In this document: in pieces, positions 485 through 47,574 of the stretch
Layout of the letters: each line of letters begins with the position of its first letter
Numbering within the stretch: the stretch's first letter is position 1
Source of the DNA: Owenia fusiformis
Taxonomy: Eukaryota > Annelida > Polychaeta > Sabellida > Oweniidae
Assembly (NCBI GenBank): GCA_903813345.2
Contig: CAIIXF020000009.1
Span: forward strand, 8,364,030-8,428,029
Reading direction: 5' to 3'
DNA length: 64,000 bases
Notes under the pieces: model-generated
Database searches by the model: none
What the model was told of the DNA's origin: nothing
Seen by the model: the letters and a program-made list of their open reading frames with translations, nothing else
Program-made: the position numbers and the translations under genes

Positions 485-5100
<4,616 letters not shown>

Positions 5101-5613: not shown

Positions 5614-7676
5614 GTTCAGACTGCAGAAGCTTTACGTAGTAATATTTGATAACTTATACTATTTCGTTTCTGCGATATTTATGTCATATCGTGTTCAAAT
5701 TAAAACGGATTTTTGAACCGGTAGGAAAAATATCATGTGGCAAACATTTACTGCACAATAGAATACGACTCGCGTTCAAAACATATCTTTGCTATCCATA
5801 ACGAGGTTGGAAGTATGAATGACCGATGGGTCGTTTTGGTAATTGTGTGAATTTGAATCTTACAGGGTGGGCCAAAAAAGTAAACCAAACAAATGTCTTA
5901 ATAATTCAGTCATTCAGCATGGGTTTAAAATCCTAATAGGCGCAATTAAACCTTGTTCAATGTTTTTTCATTCTACTAGGTTTCATAAGTCTAGCACGAT
6001 TTTATGGTCATTCACAAAACATGGTCAAAATGCCGAAATGTGCCTCACTGACTGGACATAAATCCCATCATATTTTTTATCTTTGGGCCAATTTTCTACA
6101 ACAACCCCTACAGCAAAAGATAAGAAGGAAGATGAGAGCCATAACAAATACGAGTTGTTGTAAACAACTACGCCCAATACGTGAAAGCTGGCTTCAAGAC
6201 ATGACGCCCATATTTTATGACATGGTTTGTAAAATGGCTATAAATCGTGACCACTAGAAATAGATCACTGAAACTCGAATGACAATACATAGGACAAGGC
6301 CTAATTATGCCAAATATGACACTAGACCCATGCAGGATGAATGATTGATTAAGATTGTTTTGGTTACCTTTTTTGCTTCACTCTATCTGTAACATCATAA
6401 ACATCCTCCAAGTGTAACTGTATTTGTCGACTTATATGCTGTAAAGCGGGATGCGATTCAAACCGATTGTATTACGTTGTACCTTTTCATTTATAGATTT
6501 TATTAATATTTGTTAATAACTGACAAAATACAAATATATAGGACTACTAGATAGTTCAGAATATCCTTCCTTTTTTGTATTTTTTTAATTATATTTTCAT
6601 ATTAGTTGCTGTGTTTTGTTAAACGTAGTTTAATAAATCTGCCCTGTACATGAGTGAGTGCTTGGGAGAGGCTGTTTCAAATATCCGTAGTGTGTGATTG
6701 TCCTTTTTCTGATCTGTCTGTTTATTTCGTGGTATAAATATGTGTTTCTTCTAAAAATATTTTTGGGAACTTTTATGTATAAAATAACTGATTTGTAATC
6801 ATAACAGAGAAAGGTAAAATATTTGTGATTATTTTCTTTGAGTGGATGTTTTACATGTAAGGAGGGTGAACTGGTCATACAAAAATTATGATGACGTATT
6901 GCCAGTCCATCTATATAAAAGAGCGTAACTTTTGATTTTGCTGTGATATTTTTGAATATCTTTTTAACGAAAAGGCACAGGTAAATATTTTGATATTTTT
7001 CACTGAAATTCTTTGAAAAAAGATAGACTGGGTTAGCTGGAGGAAATAAGTTATGTGATATACCACAATGCATATGGGAAAAAGTGTAGTTCGACCTTGG
7101 CAATTTTCAATATATTTTTGCATGAAGTCACCAGGTGGAACGCAAACATTTTCTTTTTTACCGTTAAAATCAAAGAATTTTCAATATGCACACACTTGAG
7201 AGAAATCTATGATATAAAGCAGGAGACAGAGTTGACAATTGAGTTCACATGACGAAGGGAACATAATCAATAAAAAATAAAAAAATGGGAAAGCTCACGT
7301 AGTTACAAAAAACACACCACAATATCCCAACCAATGAAAATATAGATAAATGATAAAAAAAACTGTATAAAACTAAATTTTTGAGTTTCCCCATGGTACC
7401 CCCATAAATGTGGGGTTGATTTTTCAAATCACTCCAACAACTACTTTTGTACTGGAATCGTCCTGTCGGAAATAAGCTACTATAGACAACGTTTTCAAAC
7501 GGCATAATTTCGATACACAATTGGGTGGGTGATATGAAACATCAACCCCATATTTACATGTATGATTTATGGTGTACCCTTGGACCCATGATGGCAGTTC
7601 TGTAGTTTTCACGTTGTCTATTTAAGATTTGTCGAGAACAATCTTAATGTGGTCATTTATTTTGCTGTCATAAAAA

Positions 7677-7729
7677 ACTCAATCGGCCGGGCGCCGGCCG
7701 ATGGAGGGAGCAAATGTGACCCAGGCATA
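7677..7729. mobile_element. Half copy of the CGGCCGGGCGC MITE family
   Basis: ACTCAATCGGCCGGGCGCC followed by GGAGCAAATGTGACCCAGGCAT. This is one terminus of the same family as the fuller copies at 12015-12157 and 12421-12547. The other terminus is missing. Confidence 0.65.
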
Positions 7730-8324: not shown

Positions 8325-11300
8325 ATGAAGTTTTTTTGGGGTTTGATATTTCTTCTTATTGTCTTATCAGTACAAGCCAAAAAGAAGAAACAAAAGAAAC
8401 CAAGTTTACATGTTTGCAAGAAAGCTGATATATCCAAACTTGAAGAAAATCTTAACATCGACATCACTGAACTCCAGAAAACACTTGGATCTGATATTGC
8501 CGGAATTGAGAAATCACTACGTTCTGATAATACTGAAGTTAAAACTAATATAACTGAACTCAGGTCTGAATTGATAAGCTTAGAGACAAAACTGCTAGCA
8601 AAATTAGAAGAACTTCAAGGACAAAAATGCTGCAACAAAACTAAAGAGACCAAAGAAAATCACGGTAAGATTCACGAACAAAACCCCAGACTAACTCACA
8701 TGTAAGAATAAATTTTGTAATAAGAAACTTCATATTACAAATAACCTTAAACTTTTGTAATCGCGTTTCGCTACACCCAGTTGTTAATATTTGATATGGA
8801 AAACGATGATTTAAGTTAAAAAGTGATTAAATTATACACTAAGACCTATTATCATATCTTGGTTACCGCCATATGTGGCGAGCAATACCTCATTGATATA
8901 TTCCGTATTTTACGTATTTTACACTCGAAGATAGAGCCAGAAACCCCTTACACGAGTTGTGAACCACTCAGTAACACACAGAATTACATAACGCACAAAT
9001 TAACAAACTTGTCTGAACCGGGAATCGAACCCGGGGCCAAGCGATATTGGTAACCTTGGCTCTCTGCCACTGAGCCATAGCGGGTGGACTGATGTAAAGC
9101 CAGCTCTGGTTGCTTTAGTACTCAGTTGGTCGACTCACAGTGAACACCATCCACCTCTACTTTATGGTTACCTGAAGTGCGGTTACTTGAACATTTTGAA
9201 GAACCCCCATGTTTTGAAACATTGAATTCACCTGTTTTACACTGATATTTCTGCTTTATTCTTAGCCCTAGATGACGAGAAGACATAAATGCCCAATAAA
9301 AAGTTAACGTTTCACCTCAAATGTCCAAAATAGTGTTCAAATCTTTAGAAATGTGCTCATTTTGACTTAGATGTTTCCACAGATGGACATCTCGCAAATT
9401 CCCCTGTAAAATCTCGAGGAAATTTGGGGGAATCCCCTTTTTTCCATCTTTTCCATCTTTGCCAGTTTTGGAAAACCAAGGGCACATGTTAACACCAATA
9501 GTGCCTAGATGCGCTGCTGATTTCCATGAATCTCGATCTCGATGTTTTACAGAAGCCTGCCCAATGGGGCAAATACAGTTCCAATCGGCCTGTTACCTGG
9601 TCGTTACGGAGAAGAAAACACAAGCAGATGCCACAACTTTTTGTCGGGCGAATGGAGGAGAATTGGTATCTATCGAATCTGCCGATGAGAACGCATTTCT
9701 CGCTAATGAACTACAGCGAAAACATGACATTTCAATCTTTTACATAGGTAACCTAATTTGTAGTTTATTCTGTCCGAGAATTGTTTTCTAAATACAAGCC
9801 AACGCGGTTTAACCCTAATGTCTGCAGGGGGGAATTTTTTCTAGAGTGCTTTTTGCGAATTCTTTTTAGCGTATTCGTTATTTTTTAGATTGAGCCACAG
9901 ATACAGTATAGGACACATACAGTACAGGGTGGTCCAAAAATGGGACACTCGTATTTCAAAAAATAAATATTGATTTTCTTGATGAAAACATGTCATATTA
10001 TATACCAGTGGATAGGGAATTTACTCATCTTTGATTTGGTATATGATAAGCTCAAATTCATTTTAATGTCTGTCAACCAGCGTCCATAATATAAATGACG
10101 TCATTTTCGTTTCAAAACGGGTTTTCCAAAACTTGCAAAAACCAAGTTTTTTGTCAATTTTATTTACATAAACAGACATTCAATATGTTCACCATTTTGA
10201 TCAATAATAGCCCTCAATTTAGGCTTAAACAAGCATCATTGATATGGTGTTGAGACAATGAATTCCACTTCTCAACAATTCTATACATAAAAGGGACTGA
10301 GTAGTTGTAGGGGGCTCATGGTAAACCAATTCTGTTAGTTCTCCCAATACGTGCTAGTCGCAAACGTTGACATCGGACAATCCAATTAGCTGTTTTGGGG
10401 CCATTCTGATATGAGCTCATTTATGAATCATTACATTTCCCAAGCAATACATCTCACAAGAGTATCAAATTTTTAAAGGGTTCCGATTAGCATCCCGTAT
10501 AAAAACAATATGGCGGCTCCAGGCGAATCAACTGGATCAGTCCATTTTTAAGAAATAAGGGGAGTTCTGTAAAATCCAGTTTATTGAAATTGTCTTTGAG
10601 ATAAAGTAATCCGTTTATAATGATTTTGAAAACGTTATCCAAAGAGTGATTGCGTTCAAAGAATACATGTACAACAGCCAATATAAATCCTTGTATTAGA
10701 AACCGGTTTGTCTTGCTTTGTTTCATTTGTAGGATATTTCATATGCCAAGCTGTGTGCTATTACGTTATGGGGAAATTTAGATGCCAATTTTCCTTATTA
10801 TACACAAATAGAAGATCCTGAAACTTCACCCATAAATGTGGAATTGATTTGTCAAAATAAAAATCACCCTTTTATAAATGTGTGACGATCTATAATATAC
10901 TTATGCTATATAACAGTTAGAGGTGTTGACACAACGACCTCGAACCTGTGAACCCTTGAGTATTATTCCGGGATCGGGCCTTTTATACTAAACGGTGAGC
11001 AACACCAGAAACGAGCGTTCGATTTGCTAAACGATATGCGTCACCCTTTAAAGGAAAATGTGCCTAGATTCATCACCCCTTAGTCACTGCCTCACCCAGA
11101 TCACTGGCCCAATCACCCAAAGTCTGTGACTCACACGTATGGGGAGAAGTAACAGAATTGGTGTACCATAAATCCTTTACATCTTTTCAGTCCCTTAAGG
11201 ACAGATTTATTGAAAAGTGAAATTCATTGTCTCAACAGCATATCTATGATGCTATTGACCAGTCTAGGCCACAATTGAGGGCTACAGTTGATCAAAATGG

Positions 11301-12389
11301 TGGACATATTGAACGCCTGTTTATGTATATAAAGTTGATTGTCAACTTGTTTTTTGCACCCGTTTTGAAACGAAAACGACGTCATTTATATTATAGACGC
11401 TGGTTGACAGAGATTAAAATAAATTTTCACTAATGATATACCAAATTAAAGATGAGTAAATTCCCTATCAACTGGTATATAATATGACATGTTTTCATTA
11501 AAAAATCAATATTTATTTTTGAAATACGAGTGTCCCATTTTTTGGACCACCCTGTATATGCATACTAAATCCATTCAATTTCACGTTACAATCGTTTCAA
11601 TGGGATTTCGCGATAACTGCTATCTTTGAAAGTGTGTAACTTCAGTTCTAGAAAAGCTTTTACCATGATTTTAGTTTTATTTGAAAGATAATAGATAATC
11701 CTTGAAGTAGTGATGCATTTATGGCACCATAAGAATTATTGTGAAAGAAAATTGAAAATTCATCACAAAATGTCAAAAATATACACCCCATAGGTCATGT
11801 TGATCTCGATTTGACCTTTGTTAACCTACTTTTTTTTAAATAAAACTTTCTGATGAGGCAATTGAATAGGGTTTACAAAAATACCAACAATAATGAAATC
11901 AGACAAATAAAAAATCGCGGGGGGGTTCAATTGACCCCCTCTTGCGACTTAGTGTTATAAATAGACATTTGGGGCCTTTAAGTTAAAAAAGTATCTATCG
12001 TTACGCTTATCACGTATGCCTGGGTCACATTTGGTCCGATCCATCGGCCGGCGCCCGGCCAATTGAGTGTTATGTTCAATATTGTATTCAATTTTAAACA
12101 AAATACTCAATCGGCCGGGCGCAGTAGTGGAAATCGGAGCAAATGTGACCAAGGCATTACTCGTTCACTGATGAATTCAGGATTGAAAGTCAAAAACAAT
12201 TCATACACACAATGGACTGATGGTGAAAGTGTGGGTTACACAAACTGGGGCGATGGAGAACCAGACCCGAGCAATCATGAGGAATGCGTTACCATGGAGA
12301 AATCAGAAAGTTACAAATGGCATGATGTAGTGTGTAGCCGAGCAGAAGCATTCATCTGTAAATTCCAAATCAGTAAGTTAAATCAATAA
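8325..12389 (+). CDS. Secreted C-type lectin with N-terminal coiled coil
   Basis: Exons 8325-8664, 9553-9747 and 12181-12389, all phase-1 junctions. The signal peptide is MKFFWGLIFLLIVLSVQA, followed by a Lys-rich patch. Residues ~30-105 form heptad-like Leu/Ile repeats, likely an oligomerising coiled coil, then a CC pair. The C-type lectin domain follows with six cysteines (ACPMG, SACYLV, TFCRANGG, EECVTM, VVCSR, FICKF), the long-form pattern. Conserved landmarks are ELVSIES, the exon-spanning YIGLK, WTDG and YTNWGDGEP. The carbohydrate-selectivity motif reads EPD rather than the usual EPN or QPD, and the calcium motif WND reads WHD, so sugar preference is uncertain and Ca2+ affinity may be altered. 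A consensus donor (GTAAGT at about 12373) just before the stop could add a further exon. Probably an immune or mucosal lectin; that role is inferred. Confidence 0.88.
9010..9087 (-). ncRNA. tRNA-like sequence, probably a SINE head or tRNA pseudogene
   Basis: On the minus strand GGCTCAGTGGCAGAG resembles a Pol III A box and GGTTCGATTCC is a perfect B box inside a good T arm (CCGGG/CCCGG). An anticodon-like stem CCAAG/CTTGG holds a loop of about 13 nt, too large for a normal tRNA. The acceptor ends do not pair. It lies in lectin intron 1. Confidence 0.5.
9923..11556. mobile_element. Fold-back mariner/Tc1-type element in lectin intron 2
   Basis: Outer ends are TACAGGGTGGTCCAAAAA and its inverse, with TA at both edges. 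The inverted arms run for roughly 400 bp (9923-~10340 and ~11130-11556). Both arms encode a degenerate C-terminus of an IS630/Tc1/mariner transposase, one on each strand: in the right arm IEKWNSLSQQHIYDAID-like and ATVDQNGGHIE-like residues read from about 11200 to 11330. The middle (10340-11130) holds no intact transposase. It looks like two element halves joined tail to tail, or a deleted element rebuilt as a fold-back. Confidence 0.75.
12015..12157. mobile_element. CGGCCGGGCGC MITE, copy 2, next to lectin exon 3
   Basis: The ends TGCCTGGGTCACATTTGG and GCAAATGTGACCAAGGCA form terminal inverted repeats, with inner GGCCGGCGCCCGGCC-type arms flanking an AT-rich core. It stops about 24 bp before the splice acceptor of lectin exon 3 (exon starts 12181). 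Confidence 0.85.
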
Positions 12390-12420
12390 TCTGTCATATG
12401 TTAAAATTTCAATCATGTAT

Positions 12421-12547
12421 AATACCTTGGTCACATTTGCGCCGATTTTGACTACGGCGCCCAGCCGGTTGAGTATTTTGTTTAAAATTGAATACAATAT
12501 TGAACAAAAGACTCAATCGGCCTGCGGAGCAAATGTGACCAAGGCAT
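12421..12547. mobile_element. CGGCCGGGCGC MITE, copy 3, just past the lectin stop codon
   Basis: TACCTTGGTCACATTTGC at the left and GCAAATGTGACCAAGGCA at the right, with an AT core (TTTAAAATTGAATACAATAT) nearly the inverse of that of copy 2. It lies about 30 bp past the lectin stop, so it may sit in the 3' UTR or a further intron. Confidence 0.85.
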
Positions 12548-12890
12548 GCATTACTGTTAAAAATCTGAGTTTTAAGGCACAATCATATAAAGGTCTTCAA
12601 AAGCTAAAAAGATGAAAACATGTTTAAAGTTACTTCACCTGACGTCATGTGACGATAGCAACATATAAAAATGTACATAGAGTAATCACGGGCTACTAGA
12701 GTTTCCACGTATATGGAGTATGACCGGTTCTTAGGCTACGAATATGACCTGTTTTGGAAAGTCATGAGAGGCACAGCTGCTTAAAATGGAAAATAAAGGT
12801 TACCTTCTATATTATCCTTTTTGAAATTGTGTTTGTTGAATATAGTTTAGGCTGTATTTAATATTCGAACATGACTGTATTCACGCCTTC

Positions 12891-12897
12891 TATAAAC
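12891..12897 (+). promoter_or_regulatory. TATA-like box upstream of the Crypton-type recombinase
   Basis: TATAAAC sits in a segment of about 50 bp (GAACATGACTG, CACGCCTTCTATAA, GTGAACAAAGTCAA) that recurs inverted at about 55282-55332 beside a hairpin element. Its distance to the ATG at 13032 (about 140 bp) suits a core promoter. It also argues against the upstream in-frame ATG at 12912, which would fall at or before the start of transcription. Confidence 0.45.
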
Positions 12898-13031
12898 TGT
12901 GAACAAAGTCAATGCTTCAGCTGAGTCAAATCCCTGGCTCTGTACGGAGTGTTTCGTTCAGTGTACTGAATTGTCAATTCGGGCTGTTCCGTTCTTTTCG
13001 CATCCCCCTCTCGTCTGCAATAAAAATCAAT

Positions 13032-16000
13032 ATGGAGGCCGGACAGAATTGTCCTGATCCTAAGTTTGCCGTGGGAGATTTCGTTATTTGTAATTTGAAA
13101 CACCCTGATATTAGTTTAACAATTGAGAACAAACTTGGTTATATTACAAGCATCACCAATAGAACAGGAACAAATAGGTACTCCGTATTTATGATTGATT
13201 CACAGTTGAGTATGGATTTCGCCACCTGGAATTTGGAATTAAGCCAGGAATTTAGTGATTTTTTCGACAATGCTGATGTTTTTGAGAAAACAGTTATCGA
13301 TAATGATACATCTTGTCCAGCGGAAGTGAAAGTGAAACGCCATAGCGAAGTAGAAGAAGCAGAAATCAAAAACTTACAAGACTGTAGAGAAGAGCCCTCC
13401 ACAAAAGCAGCCACAAGATGGAGTGTGAATATTTTCAAAGGTAGGCTTACGCCGGCTAAGTTCGACTGCAAAATAAATTAAATAATCCCAAGTTATCAAG
13501 ATCACTTAGTTTGTCTTTTTTTCTTTTTTTTATCATTTAGGTTATTTTTGTTTTCTTAGGCTAGCTTAGTCAAGGGCGTTACAATACCCGGGAATTTATC
13601 GGTTCGTCCAGTACTTGTTTGTGATAGCGCCCTCTGTAGGTCACTGTGCTTATAGCCTACAGTAATACGGGGTAGGATATCGGGAATTCGGTCAGTTTCT
13701 ATCCGTCGATTTCGCTATGAATTGAAGCAAGTGTGACCACTTTATCCACTTAAACAGTTTGATAATTGATTAAATCTTTAAACAAAATCGATAAACACGT
13801 TATACACATCCTATCTCCTCAGAAATTAGCATGTATTTATGGATTGTGTTTTCGAACAAGGCTCGACCAACACCAATAGGGAAATCCTTATGCTAATTAG
13901 TATGACGTCATATTTTCCTGGGGAATCCTAGATTTCAAAGCCTCAGTCTGTTATTGTGTCAAATGTAAACGCTCTTGGGACGCTCTTTTGCAGACAGAAA
14001 ATTGACAGATTAGCTTTTAACTTTCAGCTTTGATGTTTAAATATTCTGTATTTCTACTGGACTTCTTGCTGAATATCATATAATGTTATAACTTGATTTG
14101 GACCATTGCCTGATTGATCATTCTGAAATTTTGATTGTGATTCATGATTGATTGGCAAGAAAAATAATTCCTATTGTTTTCCAGCGAAGTCAAAATGTTA
14201 CAGCATGAGTTATAATGTCGAGTTTGCATCATGTTAAATTCTGCTAGTGATTAGAAGTCCATGCACAAGCATACACATAAGAGACAAACACACCCAGGCT
14301 CCAGGCCGTGGATGGAAATATAAAACTATTTAAGGCACAAACTGGTATTAATAGACCGATATGTAGTGTCTGCCATGTATTGAAGGTAAACCAATCTGTA
14401 TTATTAATGTTTCTTCTATCAATACATGGATTGTGCAATAGAAAAGCAATGGCACAATCAAAAATGTGCATATCAATCGTGAATATCTCTCGGTTCAAAG
14501 CTTATTTCCAACAGAATCGTGTCAAAATATGTGTCTGAGTAACAGTTATACATTATAAGATCGCAAACTCTTACCAATTATCAGCCGAATGGCTCATTTT
14601 CAACGAAATGTCCTTAAGACAACAGCCCTGGGTCGCGCCTGAGACCAAAAACTACTTCAAATAGCCCTCCCCTAATTATATTGGATAATCACATTTATGC
14701 GTGCGCGCGCAGCTCATCCTTGGCTTAGTTAGTGTAGATCTACAATTTTTTTTTCATTTTCAGGTTGGCTGGCAGAAAATGAGGAAGCAGTAACATTTGA
14801 GGAAATGACACCTGATGAATTGAACACTAGATTAAAGCGATTCTATGCTTCTGTGAGAACATCTAAAGGCGAAGTGTACAGTAAGTCAGGATTAGTCGCT
14901 ATTCGTGCAGGACTGCAGCGACATCTGATTAACCATGACAAGAAAATAAACATAATTGTCGACAGGGACTTTCAGTCTGCCAATAATGTATTGAAAGGAA
15001 TGTTGAAGAAAATAAGGCGTGATGGTCATGACAAAACTATGCATAAACCCGCCATTAATGATTCAGATATGATGAAACTGAACGATTATTTTGCCGATTG
15101 GAAAGTTAACTCGACAGTATTGGTGAGAAAAGTGTTCTTTGACATTTGTCTACATTTTGGTAGAAGGGGCAGAGAAGGTTTACGAAAACTCGATGTGAAT
15201 TCGTTTGAAGTAAAAGTTGATGAAAATGGACAAAAATATGTTCAACAAACATTTAACGAATATGACAAAACCCATAAAGGATTAGATCCTAGAGAAACAA
15301 ATAAAAGTCCTATCATGGCAGCAAGTGAGTGTGTGGAGTCATTTGAGTTCTACCTATCTAAAGTTAATGAGAAATGCAACAGCTTCTTCCAGACACCTGA
15401 CACTGTGACCAAAGATAGGCCAAATGGATCATGGTTCATGAACAGGTATGTAATAATGGACTTATTTTGGTAATGTGGATTTTTTTATCATATGCAATAA
15501 ATGAACAAATGTTTGCCAGGCACGTACACTATTTGATCATGACTACAGCCATTTAGTATTTTATCCCAAAATCCATATGAAAATTGTTTTGATAGAAAAT
15601 TTCAATGCCAGTTCAAGAGACATTTGTATATTATTTCAGACCCCTTGGTCACAACAAGCTAGCCTCAATGATGGCGACTATATCAGAGGCTGCTTCTCTG
15701 TCACGCAAATATACAAACCATTGTATTCGAGCTACATGCGTCACTCTTCTGGATCGTGCGGGTGTAAAAGACCGTGACATTATGTTGGTAACTGGTCATA
15801 GAAATCCAAGCAGCCTTAAGCACTATGCAGAGGCTCCTACTATAGAGAAGAAGACAGATCTGTCAAATGTGCTTCATTGTAGAAAAGCAATTGTACCACC
15901 TAATCAAGGAAATATGTCAGTGCCACTTACTAGTATTATACCAGGAGGAACTGTAGTAGCAAACAGCAGTGCTACAAGTAGTGCTACACACAACAATTTT

Positions 16001-16036
16001 CAAAATTGTCAGGTTTCATTAAATTATTATAACTAA
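13032..16036 (+). CDS. Crypton-type tyrosine recombinase (DUF3504 family), apparently intact
   Basis: Exons 13032-13440, 14764-15445 and 15640-16036 join in frame to 495 residues. Residues ~10-75 (FAVGDFVICNL, GYITSITN, YSVFMIDSQL) look like a small beta-barrel-like module of unknown family. From ~120 the Crypton/QRICH1/ZMYM DUF3504 pattern begins: ATRWSVNIFKGWLAEN, YSKSGLVAIRAGLQRHL. The catalytic set is complete: Arg in GRRGREGLRKL (270/271), H391 and R394 in NHCIRAT, H417 in VTGHRN, Y426 in LKHYAEA. Start chosen at 13032 for its context and the TATA position; an in-frame ATG exists at 12912. Crypton enzymes cut and join DNA through a tyrosine link and move circular intermediates. Intact frame and active site suggest a young element or a domesticated gene. 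Element ends are not visible because Cryptons lack terminal repeats. Confidence 0.88.
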
Positions 16037-16390
16037 AACTGATAAACTGATGAACTGATAAACAATGATAAGGACCAAGAGACATAAGATTACTGTACAT
16101 GAGTTTTAACTTTATTGTTTTTTTGTATTTATTACTTTATGGCTAATACAAGTTACAATGTTTACAAAAAATGTCAGAAGTTTTGTTTACATGTTTGCTT
16201 TTTAAATGCCTCAATAGATGGCGAAATGCAAAATTAATTCAAAGGTCATAGTATAGAGGGCGTAAGAACTTAGCAAAATGCAGTGATTACTCCGTTATAT
16301 GGATATCCGCTGTGATCTTTTTGATTCTGGGCAATATAGAATTAATTTCAATAATTATCAGTGTAGTAGATATGCGTGAAACCAATAAAA
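16037..16390. other. Crypton 3' flank, nothing recognised
   Basis: AT-rich sequence after the recombinase stop. An AATAAA lies near 16384. No gene or repeat is recognised here. Confidence 0.4.
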
Positions 16391-17863
16391 TCCCAATTGA
16401 AAAATAAAAGTAATTACCAACTTATTACCAACTAATTTACAACTAATTATCAACAATTCTGCTGGCAATTGGAATTAAAGTTAAGCGTTAATTAAATCAA
16501 TGATAATTATGGCCTAATTATCAGTAGCAAGTTCAACGTAAATTAACTTACAATAATGCTGATTTATGATTTTTAGTTGATAATTAAGATATGAAATGTT
16601 TTAGGGTGATAGTAAGTGGTAAATTAAAACATTTTTGTTCTGAAGTAGATTATTGGTTGATAGTTAACATATAGGATGATTATAATGATAATTAGTCGTA
16701 AATTAGGCCCATGATTTAGAAATACAAACCCCCTAAATTTAATTTCAAGATGGTGGGAAAAGAAAACATGTGAGAGATATTTCTCTCATAAAATTGAGAA
16801 TTACAACGTGAATGGTGCGTATACTACCATGAAATTTGGTCAACATTATTATAAGGGTATGTAGAACATGAATACAATGTATGTTAAATCTTATTCACAC
16901 TTCTGTCTGAAATGTTTATGAATTTAAAAATCTTTTTGAATCAGATCATATAATATTAATCCTAGAATGCAATTTAGGTACTAACATGGGTTACCTATAT
17001 TTCACAAGTAATCCAAATGTGCTCTTCTAAATAATGATTGTTAGATCAAAGACATTTCAAAACATATTTTTGATTATATCTGTTACGTCCTTATTATGTA
17101 ACATTATAGTCTAATGGTTGTGTTCTGATTTTAGTTGTTGATGGCAATAATGATGTTTTCACATGCTTTTCATGAATCTTAAAAATTTGCTAAATAGAGG
17201 GGGAGAAACCCCAGGGTTCAAAGATGACATACGCATATAATGTAAATCTGTATTGAGATGACATCGTCGCTGATTGGTTTAGTGAGTCGATTGTTGATTG
17301 GTTTAAAACTAGGTCAATTTGAAAACTTTGAAAACCAAGATGGAGGGTACGTTTTCGACAAAAGGAGGTGTGCGAAGGAGGAAATCGTATGTCATCAATT
17401 GAATCATGGGGTTTTCCCTCCTCTTGCTGTGAAATTTCAATAGTTCAAGTTCAATGTTGTCTGTTCTGAAAGATCCTAATTAAGATGAATATTCCGTCAC
17501 AAAATAGTTCAAGATGAAGCAAAAATCTCCGAGTGAAGAGAAAGCAAAAAAGAAGCGAGTCATTTTTGAGATGTCACAAATCTGACTTAAACCTAACTTT
17601 CAACTAATTATCAATAGTAAGTTAGGTGATAATTAGAGATTAACTTACATCAAACTTACAACTAACTTTCAACTAATTTACGTAAATAGCTCATTTGCAT
17701 ATTGATGGTAGTTAATCGTTAATTAAGTTGCAAATTAAGCGTTAATTGAGTTGATAATTAGCTCATTTGCATGTGAATTTTTACACCTAACTTTCAACTA
17801 ATTATCAATAGTAAGTTAGGTGATAATTGGAGATGATTTTCCATAGGCTTTTTTCAATTGGGA
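16391..17863. mobile_element. Candidate non-autonomous DNA element with TCCCAATTGAAAAA ends
   Basis: TCCCAATTGAAAAA at 16391-16404 is matched by its inverse at 17850-17863. The interior is very AT-rich with many direct and inverted copies of AACTAATTATCAA-like words. A block of about 50 bp beginning ACCTAACTTTCAACTAATTA at 17591-17640 repeats at 17785-17834. No transposase is seen. The length (about 1.5 kb) and the short terminal repeat make this a candidate, not a proven unit. Confidence 0.55.
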
Positions 17864-18001
17864 TAGGCCGAAATGTCAATAAAAAAACTTACGTCGGGGT
17901 CAAGAGGTAAGTAAACAAATTGGAACAGCCAAACGCCTAACCGGAAGTAGAAATGAAAAAATTGGAAATGAACAACGAAATTGAAGATTTAATTTCGCAG
18001 C

Positions 18002-18126
18002 GATCTTATTAGAGTTCACTGATGCATAATGACCCACATTATGATTGGTTGAGCACTTTAAAGTTATTAATTAGTATAAATTAATACGCTTGAATGTGTT
18101 GTGGTCAATCTCAACATATAACCGGG
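18002..18126. repeat. DIRS left inverted terminal repeat
   Basis: Begins GATCTTATTAGAGTTCACTG. The inverse is found at 22666-22790 with only a few differences. Its outer edge continues into the sequence matched by the internal complementary region. Confidence 0.9.
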
Positions 18127-18285
18127 TCTATTTTACCGTTGCTTTCAACTAGTAAACATGTTTCGTGTCATGGAAAATGCACGCTGGAAATTTTCTAAAT
18201 AATTTCGAATTTATGTAAGTATTTCTGAGGTTTATCATTATTGAATACTTTGGAACAGTAGAATTGATTGTTTAGATAACAGTTT

Positions 18286-19560
18286 TTGTATCAGCAAGTT
18301 ATTATCATTTGGATAATGGAGTCTGAAAGAGAACAAACTTGTTCCGGTCAAGAATTTCAAGATGGCCGAGGTCATGACTCATACAGTGACAAAGGCTTAG
18401 ATAGCCAGGCTAAAGGCTTAGGTAGCCCTGATGAAAACAATAATGGCTTAGATAGCCGACAAACTAACAAAGGTCTTGATAACCCAAAACATGTTAGGCT
18501 AAACAAGAGGAAATCACATGAAAATGTGGATCATCTTGAAAAAAGTGTCAAAAGGAAGAAAAATGATGATATCATTAGCTTTGGATCAGCTGGAGGTTTG
18601 GATTCATTTAAAATTCCTAAAAAGAAACACAGATCAAAATCAAGGAAATATGATACATCATCTAGTAGCTCAGATGATAGTGATAGTTCGAGCTCAAGCT
18701 CAAACTCAAGCTCAGATTCAAGTACTGACAAATCCTTTTTTGATCCACTATCCGAGTCTAAAAAGAACCAGTGGAAGTTGGATAAATCACACTCTGCCTT
18801 TATAAAGAAATATTGGGCAGAAGAAACATTGACTAGAGAAACGTATGATAAAATGGTGGACAAGGTTCCTTTACCGAAGTGTGAAACTTTGAAAGTGCAA
18901 AAAGTGAATCGGCAGATTACAAAACTTTCAAGTAAAGCTGCCAATAAAAATGACAAGCATTGGCAAACAGTCCAAAACAAACTGATAGATGTTATGGGTC
19001 CTCTTTGCACTATTTGGAAACTGATAGAGTCTAATGATCTGGACAAGAAAATGATAAAAACGCTTATTCAAAAAGCAATTCTTATTGCGGGTCAGACAAA
19101 CCAAATGCTATCGTATTACAGACATTATGAGCTTTTGGCTCCAATATTGAGCTTTGACAAACAAGAAATCAAAGAGTTTCTCAGAGTCAATAAGAAGCGG
19201 TTCATTAGTACACCAAAATAGTTGTTCGGAGAGAAAAGTGTCAAGAATCTGAAATCGTTAGCCAAAGAAAGGAAAGATATGGCTTTTTTGAGAAAAAACC
19301 TCAAAACTGAAAGATCTAGAGGTTCAAGGTATTTTAGCAAGCCCTTTCGTGGGGGCCACTCTTCAAGTGCCAGTCAGAGAAACCAGCAAGGAGAGTGGCA
19401 AAGCAACTCTGATAAATCCAGAGGCCGAGGTCGAGGTGCAGCCAGAGATGCTGATAAAGACCAAAGCTCAAACAGGTATGTTGACAAATCATTTAATAAG
19501 CTTAAGTCAAGTATCCCAAACTGGCGAAAGCAAGACACAAATCAAGTAGATCAGGTAAAC
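18286..19560 (+). pseudogene. DIRS ORF1 (Gag-like), interrupted
   Basis: The open frame starts at 18286; the ATG at 18316 (MESEREQ) is an equally good start. The N-terminal part repeats a GLDS/GLGS motif about five times between residues 30 and 70. A Ser/Asp run follows (SSSSSDDSDSSSSSSNSS). A conserved-looking region with SHSAFIKKYWAEETL and ILIAGQTNQMLSYYRH comes next, as in DIRS/Ngaro Gag-like proteins. An in-frame TAG at 19219-19221 stops it. The same frame then continues with a basic Arg/Gly-rich stretch (RGRGRGAARDADK), typical of the nucleic-acid-binding end. It packages element RNA in the family. The exact end of ORF1 and start of ORF2 cannot be fixed because both use the same frame here. 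Confidence 0.75.
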
Positions 19561-21140
19561 ATTTTGTTGAAGCTTGGCTTTCAGAAAATACCGCAAATCT
19601 TCACGGTAGGGGCAAGACTGCCAAAATTCATTCAAAACTGGCAAAAAGTCACAAAAGATTCAGAAATTCTAAACATAGTTCGAGGCTACAAAATAGAATT
19701 CACAGCAAAACCACCAATGAACAATCATATATAATGGCCTTGCTTCAACAAGACTCAAAATCAAGCCATAGACTTAGAAATAAAAAAGTTGATAGAAAAA
19801 AACGCATTAGAAATTGTAAAGTCAAACAAAGATCAACATTTGTCCCATCTGTTTTTGAGGGAGAAAAAAGATGGGTCTCAAAGACCAATATTGAACCTAA
19901 AACCTCTGAACCAATATGTGAAATATCAACATTTCAAAATGGAAGGGTTGGCAATGTTAAAGAACTTAATACAGCCCAACGACTTCATGATAAAGTTGGA
20001 TTTAAAAGATGCATATTTAACGACATGAACATGAAAGTCCCCCCAGAGAAAGTAGAATCAATCAAGCAGGTATGTCACAACCTGTGGAAACAACAATTCA
20101 CAACAGTCCGTCATTTAGCCATGGTAATAGGCAAACTGGCGGCATGTACAATGGCTATAATCCCAGCACCCCTTCATTATCGTCACCTTCAAAGGTTGAA
20201 AACTCAAGGATTAAAAATGTTCAATCAGTCATACTCCTCGGTTATCAAAATTACAACACCAGTAAAGGAAGAACTTATGTGGTGGGAGCAAGAAATAGAC
20301 AATTGGAACGGGAAAGCAATCAAAGTGACGGACCCCGACATAATAATAACCACGGACAGTTCTCTAACTGGTTGGGGGGCGGAGTCACAAGGGAATGTCA
20401 TTCAGGGTCAGTGGAGTTTGAAAGAATCAAACCAACACATAAACATATTAGAATTGAAAGCCATAGAAATGGCAGTCAGGTCATTCACCAAGAATCAAAC
20501 AAATTGTCATATTCACATAAGAACGGACAACAAAACAGCATTAACATATATAAACAAGATGGGGGGAACAAAGTCACTGAATCTCCTAGAAACGAGTCTG
20601 GAATTATTCAACTACTGCCTCATGAAAAGGATCACAATTACTGCGGAGTACCTCCCAGGCAAATCAAACCTGATTGCAGACCGTGCATCAAGGAAATACC
20701 AAGATGCATCGAATTGGATGCTGGAAAAGAGCATTTTCTCACAAATAGAGAAGAAGTGGGGAGCAGCACACATAGACTTGTTTGCAGACCGACTGAACGC
20801 TCAGAAAGAGATGTATTACAGCTGGAAAATGGATCCTCATGCAACAGCGATAGACGCATTCTCTCAGAATTGGAGCATGAAGCTATTATATGCCTTTCCA
20901 CCATTTTGCCTGATACAACGGACATTGGCAAAGGTAAGGATCGGAGACAATCAGCAGAACTGATTCTCATAACTCCAACATGGCAAACAGCAGTTTGGTA
21001 CCCTCAGCTGTTGGAAATGGCTGTGGATTGTCCAATTTTAATTCCTCCTCATCACAATCTATTGACATCGCCACTAGGTCAGGTACATCCTTTAATAGAA
21101 CAGAGCAATCTAACCTTAGCAGCATGGAGGATATCAGGAG
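19561..21140 (+). pseudogene. DIRS reverse transcriptase/RNase H, broken, polymerase core deleted
   Basis: The N-terminal fingers region is readable (KLIEKNALEIV, LFLREKKDGSQRPILNLKPL, HFKMEG, KLDLKDAYLTT) but split by a TAA at 19732. After LKDAYLTT (about 20028) the frame jumps directly to the connection region (KVPPEKVESIK). The palm segment with the YxDD catalytic pair, normally about 100 or more residues, is missing. RNase H follows with its acidic residues present: ITTDSSLTGWG, ILELKAIEMA, IRTDNKTA, IADRASRK. Another frame change near 20940-20960 leads to the conserved tail LITPTWQTAVWYPQLL and LAAWRISG. This copy cannot make an active polymerase. Confidence 0.88.
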
Positions 21141-22116
21141 TAAGTATCAAAACCAAGGCTTTTCAGAGAAAACTGCAGAAATGCTTATCAAAGCCAGGAG
21201 GACAGGTACAAGATCTGCTTACAATGGCCCCTGGAAGGTCTGGGTTAGCTGGTGTGGTAAACAAGGTTTTGATTCCATTTCAACCACTGTGGTCAATGTT
21301 GCTAATTTTCTAACAGAAATGTACCAGGAAGGTAAGTCATACTCTACTCTTAACACATATAGATCAAGCTTGTCAGCATATCTCGAACAAATAGATGGAC
21401 ATAAGGTAGGGCAACATCCCAAAATTCACGACTAAATGAAAGGTTTTTTCAATGAAAATCCACCAAAGCCTAGGTATCAAAACACATGGGAAGTCAACAG
21501 AGTATTACATTATATTCAAAGCCTGGGTGAAAATAAGTCCTTGAGCAGAAAACAGCTCTCCAGTAAGTTGGCAATACTAATGGCACTCACAAGTGCTTGC
21601 AGGGGATCAGAGTTACATAGATTAAACCCAAAACTGTTTCTAGACAAAGGCTCAGAAATTATCGCTCAATTAGATGGTTTATCCAAAACGGCAACTCAGT
21701 CAAAACCTTATACAAATTTAAAATTCAAGGAATTTGAAGAAAATCAATATCTTGACGTTGTCAAAGCAATGAAAACATATCTAACATTAACTCAGTCTAT
21801 ACGCACAACAGAAGAACAAAAATCAAAACTGTTCCTATCTAATGTTAAACCTTTCAATCCAGTTAAGGCCTGTACCATAGCAGGATGGATTAAGCAGGTA
21901 ATGAGTGATTCTGGAATTGACACAGGTATTTTTAAAGCACACTCAACAAGGGCAGCATCAACATCTAAGGCATGGGTATCGGGCTTGTCAACTAGTCAAA
22001 TTATTGAAACAGCAAATTGGACAAATGTCTCAACTTTTTACAAGTTTTATAAGCGAGAAACTAACGATTTCTCATCAATTGTTCTGAGGTTAGTAACTTT
22101 AAACATGCATCAGTGA
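20980..22116 (+). pseudogene. DIRS tyrosine recombinase, one in-frame stop
   Basis: Overlaps the 3' end of the RT/RNase H region in a different frame, as is usual for DIRS. The N-terminal core-binding part includes SAYNGPWKVWVSWC and STLNTYRSSLSAYL. The catalytic part includes ACRGSELHRL (box I Arg), FKAHSTRAAS (HxxR), ETANWTNVSTF (Trp in the usual DIRS position) and YKFYKRE (Tyr nucleophile). A TAA at 21433-21435, just before MKGFFNENPPKPRY, separates the two parts. The enzyme normally inserts the circular DNA copy. All catalytic residues are still there despite the stop, so decay is recent. Confidence 0.85.
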
Positions 22117-22215
22117 ACTCTCTAATAAGATCGCTGCGAAATTAAATTCTTTAATTTCTTAAGATATCTCGCCAATGAAATTGTAATTTCATGAGCGAGA
22201 TCTTATTAGAGTTCA
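22110..22215. repeat. DIRS internal complementary region
   Basis: The left half (CAGTGAACTC, AATAAGATCGCTGCGAAATT) is the inverse of the element's left outer flank. The right half (TAATTTCATGAGCGAGATC, TTATTAGAGTTCAC) is the inverse of the right outer flank. The two halves meet near 22150-22175. It templates joining of the ends during circle formation. Confidence 0.88.
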
Positions 22216-22665
22216 CTTACTCCCACCCTTTCCCGCCCTCATATCGCTAATTATTGCTTTATGATTTCAGGACGTAACCTCAGACAACAGAAGAGATACC
22301 ACTAGTATGATGAAGACTAGACTTAAAGAGATAGGACTCTATACCTTGTTTACGTTTCGCGCAAACTGACTTATCTACGGAAGATTAGAGCGCAGTGTAT
22401 TTGGTTTCTCCCAGGCAGGGATAGAGATTTATTTATTGGCTCTCCCAAGTAGGGATAGAGGAATCAGTGTTACTGACACTCCCAGGAAGGGATCAAGACT
22501 ATACTCTGTATATACACTTTCATATTGAGGATCAAGCTTCGAAGTCTTTAGTTTTTACAAGGAGGATGCTCAATTAGAATTCTTTAATTTCGGTAGGTAT
22601 ATGTATCAAACAATATACTGTACTTATCATGTTATATAGTTCATAGTTGAAAGCTTCGGAATAGG

Positions 22666-22790
22666 CCCGGTTATAGGTTGAGATTGACCACAACACATTC
22701 AAGCGTATTAATTTATACTAATTAATAACTTTAAAGTGCTCAACCAATCATAATGTGGGTCATTATGCATCAGTGAACTCTAATAAGATC
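22666..22790. repeat. DIRS right inverted terminal repeat
   Basis: Starts CCCGGTTATAGGTTGAGATT and ends CAGTGAACTCTAATAAGATC. Inverse of 18002-18126. Confidence 0.9.
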
Positions 22791-22812
22791 TCGCTCATGA
22801 AATTAAAGAATT

Positions 22813-23036
22813 TTGCATTATTCTGGTGAGTTTTCATGTTCGAATCGTAATATAGACCTCAGAGCAGGGTTTCTAGTTTCGAATAACACCCCGCTGGTCT
22901 CGGCACAAAAGCTTTCGAACCCCTCACTCCCTTCGGTCGTTCGGGGTACAGAAAACGTTTGTGCCGAGACCAGCGGGGTGTTATTCGAAACTAGAAACCC
23001 TGCTCTTTGGTCTATATTTCTTAAGTAATGTAACAA
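22813..23036. mobile_element. Hairpin (fold-back) element, copy A
   Basis: Arms 22864-22909 and 22958-23003 are a perfect 46-base inverted repeat (start GCAGGGTTTCTAGTTTCGAA). The 48-base loop contains ACCGAAGGGAGTGAGGGG on the minus strand. Outside the stem are GTGAGTTTTCATGTTCGAAT and ATATAGACC on the left, and GGTCTATATTTCTTAA on the right. A second copy with the same flanks but a different stem sequence lies at 54972-55180. Open frames cross it in both directions only because it is a palindrome. Confidence 0.85.
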
Positions 23037-23999: not shown

Positions 24000-26640
24000 T
24001 TCAAACTTGAGTCAGATTTGAATTTCTGAGAACTTGTAAAGTCAAATTTGAACTTCTGAAAAGATGAAGATGATTTTGAAAAAAAAATTTGGTCAATTTG
24101 AAGCAAGTTGAAAACAGACCTTTTTGACCTTTTTTGACCTTGATAAGGTCATTGAAGGTCAAATGTCAAATCTAAAGTCAAATCTAAAGTCATATTTGAA
24201 TTTCTGAGAACATGTAGATGATTTTGAAAAAAAATTTAGTCAATTTGAAGCAAGATGAAAAAATACCTTTTTGACCTTTTTTGACATTGAGAAGGTCATT
24301 GAAGGTCAAATGTCAAATCTAAAGTCAGATTCGAATTTCTGAGAACATGTAGATGATTTTGAAAAAAAAAATTAGTCAATTTGAAGCAAGTTGAAAAAAG
24401 ACCTTTTTGACCTTTTTTGACTTTGAGAAGGTCATTGAAGGTCAAATGTCAAATCTTAAGTCAAATCTAAAGTCAGATTTGAATTTCTGAGAACACGTAG
24501 ATGATTTTGAAATTTTTTTTTAGTCAATTTGAAGCAAGTTGAAAACAGACCTTTTTTACCTTTTTTGACCTTGAGAAGGTCATTAAAGGTCAAATGTCAA
24601 ATCTAAAGTCAGATTTGAATTTCTGAGAACATGTAGATGATTTTGAAAAAAAAATTAGTCAATTTGAAGCAAGTTGAAAAAAGACCTTTTTGACCTTTTT
24701 TGACCTTGAGAAGGTCATTTAAGGTCAAATGTCAAATCTAAAGTCATATTTGAATTTCTGAGAATATGTAGATGATTTTGAAAAAAAATTTAGTCAATTT
24801 GAAGCAAGATGAAAAAATACCTTTTAGACCTTTTTTGACATTGAGAAGGTCATTGAAGGTCAAATGTCAAATCTAAAGTCAGATTTGAATTTCTGAGAAC
24901 ATGTAGATGATTTTGAAAAAAAAATTTAGTCAATTTGAAGCAAGTTGAAAAAAGACCTTTTTGACCTTTTTTGACTTTGAGAAGGTCATTGAAGGTCAAA
25001 TGTCAAATCTTAAGTCAAATCTAAAGTCAGATTTGAATTTCTGAGAACACGTAGATGATTTTGAAAATTTTTTTTAGTCAATTTGAAGCAAGTTGAAAAC
25101 AGACCTTTTTGACCTTTTTTGACCTTGAGAAGGTCATTGAAGGTCAAATGTCAAATCTTAAGTCAAATCTTAAGTCAGATTTGAATTTCTGAGAACACGT
25201 AGATGATTTTGAAAAAAAAATTTAGTCAATTTGAAAACAGACCTTTTTGACCTTTTTTGACCTTGAGAAGGTCATTGAAGGTCAAATGTCAAATCTCAAG
25301 TCAGATTTGAATTTCTGAGAACATGTAGATGATTTTGAAAAAAAAAATTTAATCAATTTGAAGCAAGTTGAAAAAAGACCTTTTTGACCTTTTTTGACTT
25401 TGAGAAGGTCATTGAAGGTCAAATGTCAAATCTTAAGTCAAATCTAAAGTCAGATTCGAATTTCTGAGAACACGTAGATGATTTTGAAAACATTTTTTAG
25501 TCAATTTGAAGCAAGTTGAAAACAGACCTTTTTGACCTTTTTTGACCTTGAGAAGGTCATTGAAGGTCAAATGTCAAATCTTAAGTCAGATTTGAATTTC
25601 TGAGAACACGTAGATGATTTTGAAAAAAAAATTTAGTCAATTTGAAAACAGACCTTTTTGACCTTTTTTGACCTTGAGAAGGTCATTGAAGGTCAAATGT
25701 CAAATCTCAAGTCAGATTTGAATTTCTGAGAACATGTAGATGATTTTGAAAAAAAAATTTAGTCAATTTGAAGCAAGTTGAAAAAAGACCTTTTTGACCT
25801 TTTTTTGACTTTGAGAAGGTCATTGAAGGTCAAATGTCAAATCTTAAGTCAAATCTAAAGTCAGATTTGAATTTCTGAGAACACGTAGATGATTTTGAAA
25901 ACATTTTTTAGTCAATTTGAAGCAAGTTGAAAACAGACCTTTTTGACCTTCTTTGACCTTGAGAAGGTCATTGAAGGTCAAATTTCAAATCTTAAGTCAG
26001 ATTTGAATTTCTGAGAACACGTAGATGATTTTGAAAAAAAAATTTAGTCAATTTGAAAACAGACCTTTTTGACCTTTTTTGACCTTGAGAAGGTCATTGA
26101 AGGTCAAATGTCAAATCTCAAGTCAGATTTGAATTTCTGAGAACATGTAGATGATTTTGAAAAAAAAATTTAGTCAATTTGAAGCAAGTTGAAAAAAGAC
26201 CTTTTTGACCTTTTTTGACTTTGAGAAGGTCATTGAAGGTCAAATGTCAAATCTTAAGTCAAATCTAAAGTCAGATTTGAATTTCTGAGAACACGTAGAT
26301 GATTTTGAAAACATTTTTTAGTCAATTTGAAGCAAGTTGAAAACAGACCTTTTTGACCTTTTTTCACCTTGAGAAGGTCATTGAAGGTCAAATGTCATTT
26401 TTGAAAAAAATTGAAGGTCAAATGTCAAATCTTAAGTCAGATTTGAAGGTCAAATGTCAAATCTAAAGTCAGATTTGAATTTCTGAGAACATGTAGATGA
26501 TTTTGAAAAAAAATTTAGTCAATGTGAAGCAAGTTGAAAAAAGACCTTTTTGACCTTGAGAAGGTCATTGAAGGTCAAATGTCAAATCTAAAGTCAGATT
26601 TGAACTTCTGAGAACATGTAGATGATTTAGAAAAAAATTG
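24000..26640. repeat. Satellite array, about 18 units of 126-148 bp, higher-order trimer
   Basis: Anchoring on AAGGTCATTGAAGGTCAAAT gives 18 units spaced 126-148 bp. From about 25130 the spacing cycles near 137, 148 and 126, implying a trimeric higher-order repeat of about 411 bp. Each unit carries TGACCTTTTTTGACCT and AGGTCATTGAAGGTCA, i.e. two AGGTCA-type direct repeats with 4-base spacers in opposite orientation, and most have TGACCTTGA. No coding potential is seen. Confidence 0.92.
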
Positions 26641-47000: not shown

Positions 47001-47574
47001 TAATTATTGTGAATTACGATTTGATGCAGTTCTATGACCTACCTGTACGTGATTTCTACTCGAAGGGGCGGTATTTCTACTCGAAGGCGCGGTAACCTCT
47101 ACGGAAAACGGCGGTATGAACGGGAAGGGGCGAATTTGATCCCTACCTGTGAGTCTGAGAGATGAAATGAATCATAAGTGAGCATCAAGTGATCTATTTT
47201 GATCAGTGATGTCATGTTGACCTAGATATATTCTTAGGTTATAGCACTCATAAAGTATCATGTTATTTGTGTTCATACAAAATCACTGGCATGCACTGTT
47301 TACTTTTTTCCGATGTTTGTAAACAAACCAAAATAACAAAGGGCAAACTTACGATTGTCACGCTGGCTTTTCGAAGTTGACGGTTTTCTTCGATAAGGTT
47401 CTTTATTTTCAGCTTACACGTGTCGACCTCCATCTTAAGTACTCTATTTTCCTGCTGCAGGGATTCAACTCGTTTTTGCAACTGCTCGAGTTGCCCGGGG
47501 GAGCGTGGAAAAGCCGTAGGACCTCCATCAATTGAACTGGTGTCGCTTTCGAGCTCACTTGCGCTGTCAGCCAT
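32056..47574 (-). CDS. CCDC6: Coiled-coil domain-containing protein 6
   Basis: Nine minus-strand exons: 47574-47353, 40481-40332, 39549-39421, 36071-35968, 34800-34613, 34270-34114, 33463-33312, 32423-32290, 32124-32056. Junctions are in frame and give 434 residues (human about 474). N-terminus [11 protein letters not shown]; then near-continuous coiled coil: [89 protein letters not shown] and the hallmark [13 protein letters not shown]. The C-terminal part is Pro/Ser-rich with [13 protein letters not shown] and PSPDKF. CCDC6 is a cytosolic/nuclear phosphoprotein linked to the DNA-damage response and, in human cancer, to RET fusions. An added KCSACGQQ stretch in exon 8 is not in the human protein as I recall it. 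Introns carry many MITEs. Confidence 0.96.
33139..33310. repeat. Five degenerate copies of GCATTATGGGACAT in CCDC6 intron 7
   Basis: GCATTATGGGAAAT (~33139), GCATGATGGGACAT (~33166), ACATAATGGGACAT (~33229), TCATTATGGGTCAT (~33261), GCATTATGGGACAC (~33294), spaced 27-63 bp. The last abuts the donor of exon 7. The inverse (ATGTCCCATAATGC) resembles part of a ZNF143/Staf-type site; that is only a resemblance. Confidence 0.6.
34905..35055. mobile_element. Short copy of the GTCACCAC element family
   Basis: GGCATTATCATGCAAAATGT then CACCACATGCTATTTGTTAC on the left; CAATATGTCACCGCTTATGG then TGGGTAATAAAAAT on the right. About 150 bp with no satellite, in CCDC6 intron 4. It shows what the satellite-bearing copy at 23955-26815 looks like without its array. 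Confidence 0.7.
35463..35659. mobile_element. MITE with perfect 17-bp ends containing CACGTG
   Basis: ATTGGCCCCCACGTGAT at 35463-35479 and its exact inverse at 35643-35659. The 197-bp unit also contains ATGACGTCAT. It lies in CCDC6 intron 4. Each end carries an E-box core (CACGTG). Confidence 0.75.
37975..38070. mobile_element. Third copy of the GTCACCAC element family
   Basis: AAAGTGTCACAACCTGCTAT, TTGTTACAGACATGC and CAAATGGTGGTGACATATAT match the ends and core word of the satellite-bearing copy. It is in CCDC6 intron 3. Confidence 0.65.
38181..38927. mobile_element. TIR element with a second palindromic element nested in it
   Basis: Outer ends TACAGGGTGTTTCATATGTA and its inverse (ATATGAAACACCGTGTA) with TA at both edges. 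Arms continue as ACTCATACATGTAGCATTG / CAATGCTACATATGTGAGT and TTACATAAGACTGCAAAGTT / TTTGCATTCTTATGTAACTT. The right arm is interrupted at ~38628-38860 by another inverted repeat, TTCAGAATATCTTCTTCTTT..ACCCCCTGC against GCAGGGGGAAGAAGGAGG..ATTCTGAA. Confidence 0.7.
39115..39289. mobile_element. CCGGTGTAAAAG MITE, copy 2 (inverted relative to copy 1)
   Basis: CCGGTGTAAAAGGG at the left and CTTTCACACCGG at the right. The interior (CTCTCCATTGATTTATATGG, CCCTTGGGGACCAT) is the inverse of the copy at 3270-3441. In CCDC6 intron 3. Confidence 0.75.
39786..39857 (-). ncRNA. tRNA-like sequence with AGC anticodon position, probably pseudogene or SINE head
   Basis: The minus strand reads GTCTAGCGGTAGAATCC (D-arm/A-box-like), TTAGCAC in the anticodon-loop position, and GGTTCGAATCC (perfect B box). 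Its backbone resembles tRNA-Gly (GGTAGAAT, GAGGCCCGGGTTCGA), but the anticodon position would read AGC (Ala). The acceptor halves do not pair, so it is unlikely to be functional. In CCDC6 intron 2. Confidence 0.5.
41856..43172. repeat. Direct segmental duplication within CCDC6 intron 1
   Basis: About 150 bp at 41856-42007 (TTCGACAAGACTCTACACAA, CACCAAGATGAGTTAATTTC, ATATCCGAGCTCTTGTCTGT) recurs at 43025-43172 with few changes. A shorter piece, TGTTAAAAATACAACTTA..CCTTTAAAATTGAGGCAGAT at ~41813, recurs at ~42180. The copies are in direct orientation about 1.2 kb apart. Confidence 0.8.
43685..44681. mobile_element. TIR unit with CTCGCGAATAGGCC ends
   Basis: CTCGCGAATAGGCCTACGGG followed by CGTTTATTT on the left; AAATAAACGCCCATGGGCCT followed by ATTCGCGAG on the right. 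About 1 kb, no frame of note. Confidence 0.65.
44458..44610. repeat. Short tandem repeat of GGGTTGAGTTGACTTG
   Basis: About nine imperfect units of 15-17 bases (GGGTCGAGTTGACTAAG, GGGTTGAGTTGACCAAG and variants). The apparent peptide on the minus strand is a by-product. Confidence 0.85.
45215..45359. repeat. Large hairpin next to a TIR unit
   Basis: Arms of about 60 bases: TTATATAATGGTTCTTTCTG at the left and its near inverse (CAGAATGAACCATTATATAA) at the right. The 19-base loop is AAGTGAGCGTAGCGAACGA. It directly abuts the element starting at 45360. Confidence 0.8.
45360..45720. mobile_element. MITE with CTTATTATGCCACTC ends
   Basis: CTTATTATGCCACTC at 45360-45374 and GAGTGGTATAATAAG at 45706-45720, with one mismatch between the ends. 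The interior has two direct copies of AACCATTTATGACGT..CTTGATTCTAG..AAATCATG. Confidence 0.7.
46030..46784. mobile_element. Nearly full-length palindrome flanked by TTAA
   Basis: GGTCTCATGGAAGTTAACAG at the left mirrors CTGTTAACTTCCATGAGACC at the right. About 360 bp per arm can be followed inward (AAATGTGCCCAATATA / TATATTGGGCACATTTTC), with a small centre near 46400. TTAA sits at 46026-46029 and 46785-46788. Non-coding. Confidence 0.85.

Follow-up and report, generated by a model that had tools for sequence, protein, structure and literature searches.

An intact Crypton-type tyrosine recombinase gene, probably that of a CryptonA-type transposon, in the annelid Owenia fusiformis

Results

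A three-exon gene of Owenia fusiformis encodes a tyrosine recombinase of the Crypton lineage with an unbroken reading frame and a complete set of catalytic residues. On the sequence evidence, we consider it probable that this is the recombinase of a CryptonA-type DNA transposon, an intact copy of which would lie here, downstream of C-type lectin exons. The gene lies in the window, by which we mean the whole 64-kb stretch of DNA analyzed here; coordinates of the gene, its domains and residues, and a neighboring element are collected in Table 1.

Table 1. Coordinates of the recombinase gene, its predicted features, and the neighboring DIRS-type element, counted from the first nucleotide of the window.
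Feature	Position	Strand	Details
Exon 1	13032-13440	+	residues 1-136 and first base of codon 137; N-terminal, without recognized domain
Intron 1 (predicted)	13441-14763	+	1323 nt, GT-AG, phase 1
Exon 2	14764-15445	+	rest of codon 137, residues 138-363, two bases of codon 364
QRICH1 match (PF25561)	14802-15011	+	residues 150-219; 7.6e-9, 36.1 bits (cut-off 30.8)
DUF3504 match (PF12012)	15114-15685	+	residues 254-379, across intron 2; 4.5e-8, 33.7 bits (cut-off 29.7)
Catalytic Arg I, R271	15165-15167	+	aligns with XerD R148
Candidate beta-hairpin lysines, K305 and K308	15267-15278	+	by position only; alignment does not settle the assignment
Phage_integrase match (PF00589)	15384-15832	+	residues 344-428, across intron 2; 1.3e-6, 28.8 bits (cut-off 27.1)
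Intron 2 (predicted)	15446-15639	+	194 nt, GT-AG, phase 2
Exon 3	15640-16036	+	last base of codon 364, residues 365-495, stop
Catalytic HxxR box, H391 and R394	15719-15730	+
Catalytic His II, H417	15797-15799	+	+26 from H391, same in XerD
Nucleophile Tyr, Y426	15824-15826	+	+9 from H417, same in XerD
AATAAA words at 16384 and 16403	16384-16408	+	348 and 367 nt past stop codon; from sequence only
DIRS-type element	17988-22807	+	starts about 1.95 kb past stop codon of recombinase gene
Recombinase of DIRS-type element	20938-22116		catalytic ORF 5 kb from Crypton-type gene

Gene structure

The original prediction described three exons joining without a break to 495 residues, a Crypton-type recombinase of the DUF3504 lineage, and a full catalytic set of Arg, HxxR, His, and Tyr, and on each of these points it proved accurate. 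Rejoining the CDS from its coordinates reproduced the gene model exactly, the joined protein matched both the DUF3504 and the Phage_integrase profiles above their cut-offs, and alignment and spacing relative to E. coli XerD (sequence from NC_000913) identified the catalytic residues as R271, H391-x-x-R394, H417, and Y426. The spliced CDS is 1488 nt long including the stop codon and contains no internal stops. Its start codon has a good context, with A at -3 and G at +4, and G+C at codon positions 1, 2, and 3 is 44.8, 37.3, and 33.7%. The splice donors read AAG/GTAGGC and CAG/GTATGT and the acceptors TTTTTCATTTTCAG/GT and TATTATTTCAG/AC; both introns are predicted to be removed in vivo.

Support for the individual exons comes from different sources. 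In 60 first-order Markov simulations of the 64-kb window, read in all six frames, stop-free runs as long as those that hold exon 1 (192 codons) or exon 2 (246 codons) never occurred (0 of 60; simulated maximum 181). Runs as long as the 146-codon frame of exon 3 are expected 0.35 times per window, so this exon is not carried by its length alone. Taken singly, exon 2 scored 17.1 bits against DUF3504 (cut-off 29.7) and exon 3 scored 26.8 bits against Phage_integrase (cut-off 27.1); both profiles stay under cut-off unless the two exons are joined, which brings the scores to 33.7 and 28.8 bits and so supports the splice of intron 2. Exon 1 rests on its open frame, the splice signals, and the start context, because no profile match spans intron 1. 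Two 85-aa ORFs within intron 1 were compared with Pfam, and neither gave a match over cut-off.

Domains and catalytic residues

Exon 2 encodes the core-binding part and the first half of the catalytic domain, and exon 3 encodes the second half of the catalytic domain followed by a tail without a recognized domain. Among phage protein families, the recombinase matched the PHROGs integrases phrog_216 (5.1e-5, residues 199-435) and phrog_1 (7e-5, residues 365-435), and an archaeal XerA profile matched at 4.9e-4, far under its own cut-off. A search of solved structures returned weak matches only, to Gp33 (E 0.45 and 0.16) and to two Int sequences (0.64). With Pfam, no C-terminal domain and no zinc-finger MYM or BTB domain was recognized in the protein. 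Among those ORFs of the gene that were compared with Pfam, no further domain, whether of a DDE transposase, a reverse transcriptase, or another transposition gene, exceeded its cut-off, the ends of the putative element being unplaced. No tRNA was found, nor any Rfam family at gathering score.

The Owenia recombinase and XerD have R, HxxR, H, and Y in common, and from the His of HxxR onward their spacing is identical (26, 9). They differ in the distance from the first Arg to HxxR, which is 96 in XerD and 120 in the Owenia protein, and their sequence similarity is short-range only. The pattern HxxR-26-[HW]-9-Y arose in 9 of 20000 shuffles of the recombinase protein. The protein may have recombinase activity.

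The N-terminal region of about 137 aa was not placed by Pfam. Its best Pfam matches, both under cut-off, were to the WDR36/Utp21 propeller (E 0.071) and the Hsr-9 Tudor domain (0.084). The longer ORF that contains exon 1 matched no Pfam family at E up to 0.1 and, among solved structures, only ribosomal eS4 (E 1.8). Single-sequence AlphaFold models of exon 1 and exon 2, each alone, had mean pLDDT values of 32.9 and 38.3 and were discarded. Inspection by eye, together with the Hsr-9 Tudor match, suggests that exon 1 might be SH3/Tudor-like, an assignment that is unproven.

Surroundings of the gene

The window contains several other recognizable features. Two ORFs on the forward strand, at 9366-9791 and 11982-12389, carry halves of a C-type lectin domain (2.8e-5 and 1.5e-8), the second ending about 640 nt ahead of the recombinase gene. 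This last lectin exon is surrounded by short repeats that are related to one another and have CCTTGGTCACATTTG-like ends (12016-12159, 12420-12522, and 7674-7729); the repeat at 12016-12159 is palindromic, and the related short repeats are probably MITE-like. An ORF on the reverse strand at 47263-47826 strongly matches DUF2046/H4 (1.3e-23), and we take it to be a CCDC6-type gene. The forward-strand ORF at 4465-5100 matched nothing in Pfam at E up to 1; its beginning is similar to the C-terminal end of a membrane guanylate cyclase (LTYWLTGE).

Directly after the first AATAAA word past the recombinase gene, a region of about 1.5 kb (16390-17864) has inverted ends of 15 bp, ATCCCAATTGAAAAA (E 0.003 in a self-comparison), and carries repeated motifs such as CAACTAATTATCAA within each end; the second AATAAA word, at 16403, falls within this repeat element. 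Also found in the window were a satellite-like array at 24039-26479, with periods that include 148 bp (16.0 copies) and 411 bp (5.7 copies), and a repeat of roughly 220 bp that occurs twice in opposite orientation (22804-23024 and 54974-55193, 83% alike), the first copy being largely palindromic.

The DIRS-type element has inverted ends that are 98% alike over 131 nt ungapped and 92.8% alike over 167 aligned columns with gaps, as well as internal complementary pieces; its matches to RT_RNaseH (0.0058) and Dam (0.0029) are under cut-off. This copy looks broken: the gag-like frame has a stop at 19219-19221, the RT reading frame breaks past DLKDAY and no YxDD could be made out by eye, and the recombinase is split by a stop at 21433-21435, between its SAM-like and catalytic parts.

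The catalytic ORF of this second recombinase matched Phage_integrase, with no DUF3504 match at E up to 1, and DIRS recombinases were likewise not matched by DUF3504 in Kojima and Jurka (2011; PMC3212892, cited throughout from excerpts of its text). It has Phage_integrase and HxxR in common with the Crypton-type protein and keeps a spacing of 26 from H to W, but Trp replaces His II, Tyr lies at +10 from that Trp, and the gene belongs to a retroelement that also has gag-like, RNase H-like, and Dam-like parts. The gag, the RT/RNase H, and the split inverted repeats are not linked to the Crypton-type gene and belong to this separate element, which, together with the missing DUF3504 match, implies that the Crypton-type gene is not a piece of DIRS. 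Within 10 kb there are two tyrosine recombinases whose lineages are apparently separate.

Copies, relatives, and element ends

No second copy or fragment of the recombinase was found in the 64-kb window, where the best other tblastn match had E 1.0. Between the flanks of the gene there were no convincing terminal repeats or paired recombination sites, and no 13-mers were common to both flanks. Inverted pairs numbered 1 in the 5' flank, 3 in intron 1, and 0 in the 3' flank (means in shuffled sequence 0.39, 1.32, and 0.77; maxima 5, 8, and 4), and the three in intron 1 are one palindrome counted at three spacings. A 50-bp repeat fragment (12863-12912), 96% like 55284-55332, lies 120 nt ahead of the ATG. 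If the gene is part of a Crypton, the flanking repeats may set its limits at about 12913-16390, or they may instead have inserted into it; this is a weak inference.

Relatives were sought with peptide patterns, which had 2 and 24 matches in viral contigs and 78 in genome contigs, none of them confirmed by tblastn. A degenerate DNA pattern encoding N-H-[SC]-I-R-A-T-x-V-T, in which the Ser option was taken from relatives and the code WSN also admits a few other residues, matched 0 times in viral contigs and 3 times in genome contigs. We regard these three matches as chance because tblastn of the protein on the same loci gave E 1.0 or worse and because at each locus the ORF that looks annotated is on the other strand; from their sequences we named these ORFs a radical-SAM-like enzyme, an LCP-type protein, and a response regulator. 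A tblastn search of phages returned two records (best E 0.03, 17-19% of the query covered), which were set aside. A DUF3504 search of a small genome set was uninformative (0 of 3 genomes, 0 of 14 controls).

Discussion

If the gene belongs to a CryptonA-type transposon, what is known of tyrosine recombinase chemistry suggests how it would move. A recombination site would be clamped by the core-binding and catalytic domains, R271, R394, H391, and H417 would hold and activate the scissile phosphate, and Y426 would attack it, producing a 3'-phosphotyrosine. The element would then be released or inserted as a double-stranded circle by strand exchange via a Holliday junction, and, unlike the case of DDE transposases, no target duplication would be made. 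In fungal Cryptons the termini bear short direct repeats. The animal CryptonA elements of Kojima and Jurka (2011; PMC3212892) resemble the Owenia gene in having a DUF3504-type recombinase with the R-H-R-Y set as their recognizable product and in lacking a recognized C-terminal domain, and, like them, the Owenia gene shows no convincing terminal repeats in its flanks; it differs in its two introns and its unplaced N-terminal region of about 137 aa, the likeness being one of features. Since animal Cryptons are reported to be without terminal repeats, as they are without a C-terminal domain (PMC3212892), a single copy cannot reveal its own ends, and the missing ends weigh little against an element.

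The complete catalytic set favors an element over a domesticated gene because the human DUF3504 sequences have lost Tyr and the second Arg. This loss extends to all seven of them, and the full tetrad was called essential for recombinase activity (PMC3212892), whereas R394 and Y426 are both present in the Owenia protein. The surroundings also count for an element, as they are rich in mobile DNA, including the DIRS-type element, the inverted-repeat element at 16390-17864, and palindromic repeats. Against an element stand the two introns, which are absent from the animal Crypton description in the excerpts of PMC3212892, the N-terminal region, and the lack of another copy in the window.

Introns, an added N-terminal region, and a single copy in the window are also what might be seen if a host gene descended from a Crypton and retained the recombinase residues, either as a DNA-binding regulator, as proposed for ZMYM, QRICH1, and KCTD1, or as a protein that still recombines DNA. 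Similarity to the QRICH1 domain points in the same direction, the domesticated ZMYM2/3/4, QRICH1, KIAA1958, KCTD1, and WOC having DUF3504 and QRICH1-type domains as in the Owenia gene, although Pfam recognized no zinc-finger MYM or BTB domain in the Owenia protein, which keeps the catalytic set. WOC, ZMYM2/3/4, and QRICH1 have introns, two positions of which are shared among them (PMC3212892, Figure 7 legend). The recombinase frame is intact beside a DIRS-type element with stops and a broken RT frame, which fits a younger gene or one under selection, and it may also be that the DIRS copy arrived broken. There is a precedent in ATF7IP, a gene that harbors an old Crypton copy whose frame is intact in zebra finch and whose recombinase is possibly still catalytic in some birds (PMC3212892), so a complete reading frame does not prove an element. 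A full set in a host gene would nevertheless be unusual, given its loss from all seven human sequences, and we judge host use unlikely; that the host owns a still catalytic three-exon tyrosine recombinase, which its N-terminal region could steer to chromatin, seems quite improbable.

The reading frame could also be open because an insertion was young, in a Crypton copy that is no longer mobile, for example because its ends were lost. The ends are unrecognizable, and the adjoining repeat fragment at 12863-12912 and element from about 16390 suggest that the flanks may have been replaced. We find a stranded copy of this kind distinctly unlikely, as the coding part has no defect and invisible ends are the reported norm for animal Cryptons. 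Derivation from an endogenous large DNA virus has a parallel in the tyrosine recombinases of endogenous crustacean nimaviruses, predicted to be multi-exon for two viruses, but the telomere-associated type is no close relative of Cryptons (excerpts of PMC10871703). The Owenia protein matches DUF3504, its recognized neighbors are C-type lectin exons, a DUF2046/H4 exon, and retroelement parts, and no relative was confirmed among the viral contigs searched, making a viral source highly improbable. Our preferred reading thus remains a CryptonA-type transposon.

Invertebrate protein databases commonly include DUF3504 proteins with a complete catalytic set, many of them under the name KIAA1958-like. 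The original prediction had contrasted the intact copy with animal DUF3504 proteins, most of them said to be domesticated and many to have lost catalytic residues, and had read it as either a recently active Crypton or a host gene with its recombinase chemistry retained. The contrast is apt for the seven human sequences, and so for vertebrates, but it is overstated for animals generally, because six animal phyla are reported to have Cryptons (PMC3212892) and thousands of copies are tabulated for a clam genome, 9,809 and 13,654 in the two column sets (PMC8905726, in part). Recent activity was not borne out, as there is one copy in the window and its ends were not found. Copy number is very low in most hosts, but medaka has more than 2,700 copies, autonomous and non-autonomous (PMC3212892). 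Excerpted text of a sea cucumber preprint also lists Crypton-A among repeats (PMC13228809). Evidence in the opposite direction comes from excerpted text of a survey of nematodes and outgroups, which reports a single Crypton, in Nematostella (PMC4157794).

With Crypton elements already known from several animal groups, the Owenia gene is a sound but fairly ordinary find unless a host use emerges. According to Kojima and Jurka (PMC3212892), Crypton transposition had not been studied as of 2011, and an animal recombinase whose frame is intact and whose gene model is clean offers a usable start for a biochemical test of it. If the gene instead serves the host, it would be a domesticated Crypton that has kept its active-site residues, unlike the seven human sequences and comparable to the ATF7IP copy, in which retained activity was raised only as a possibility.
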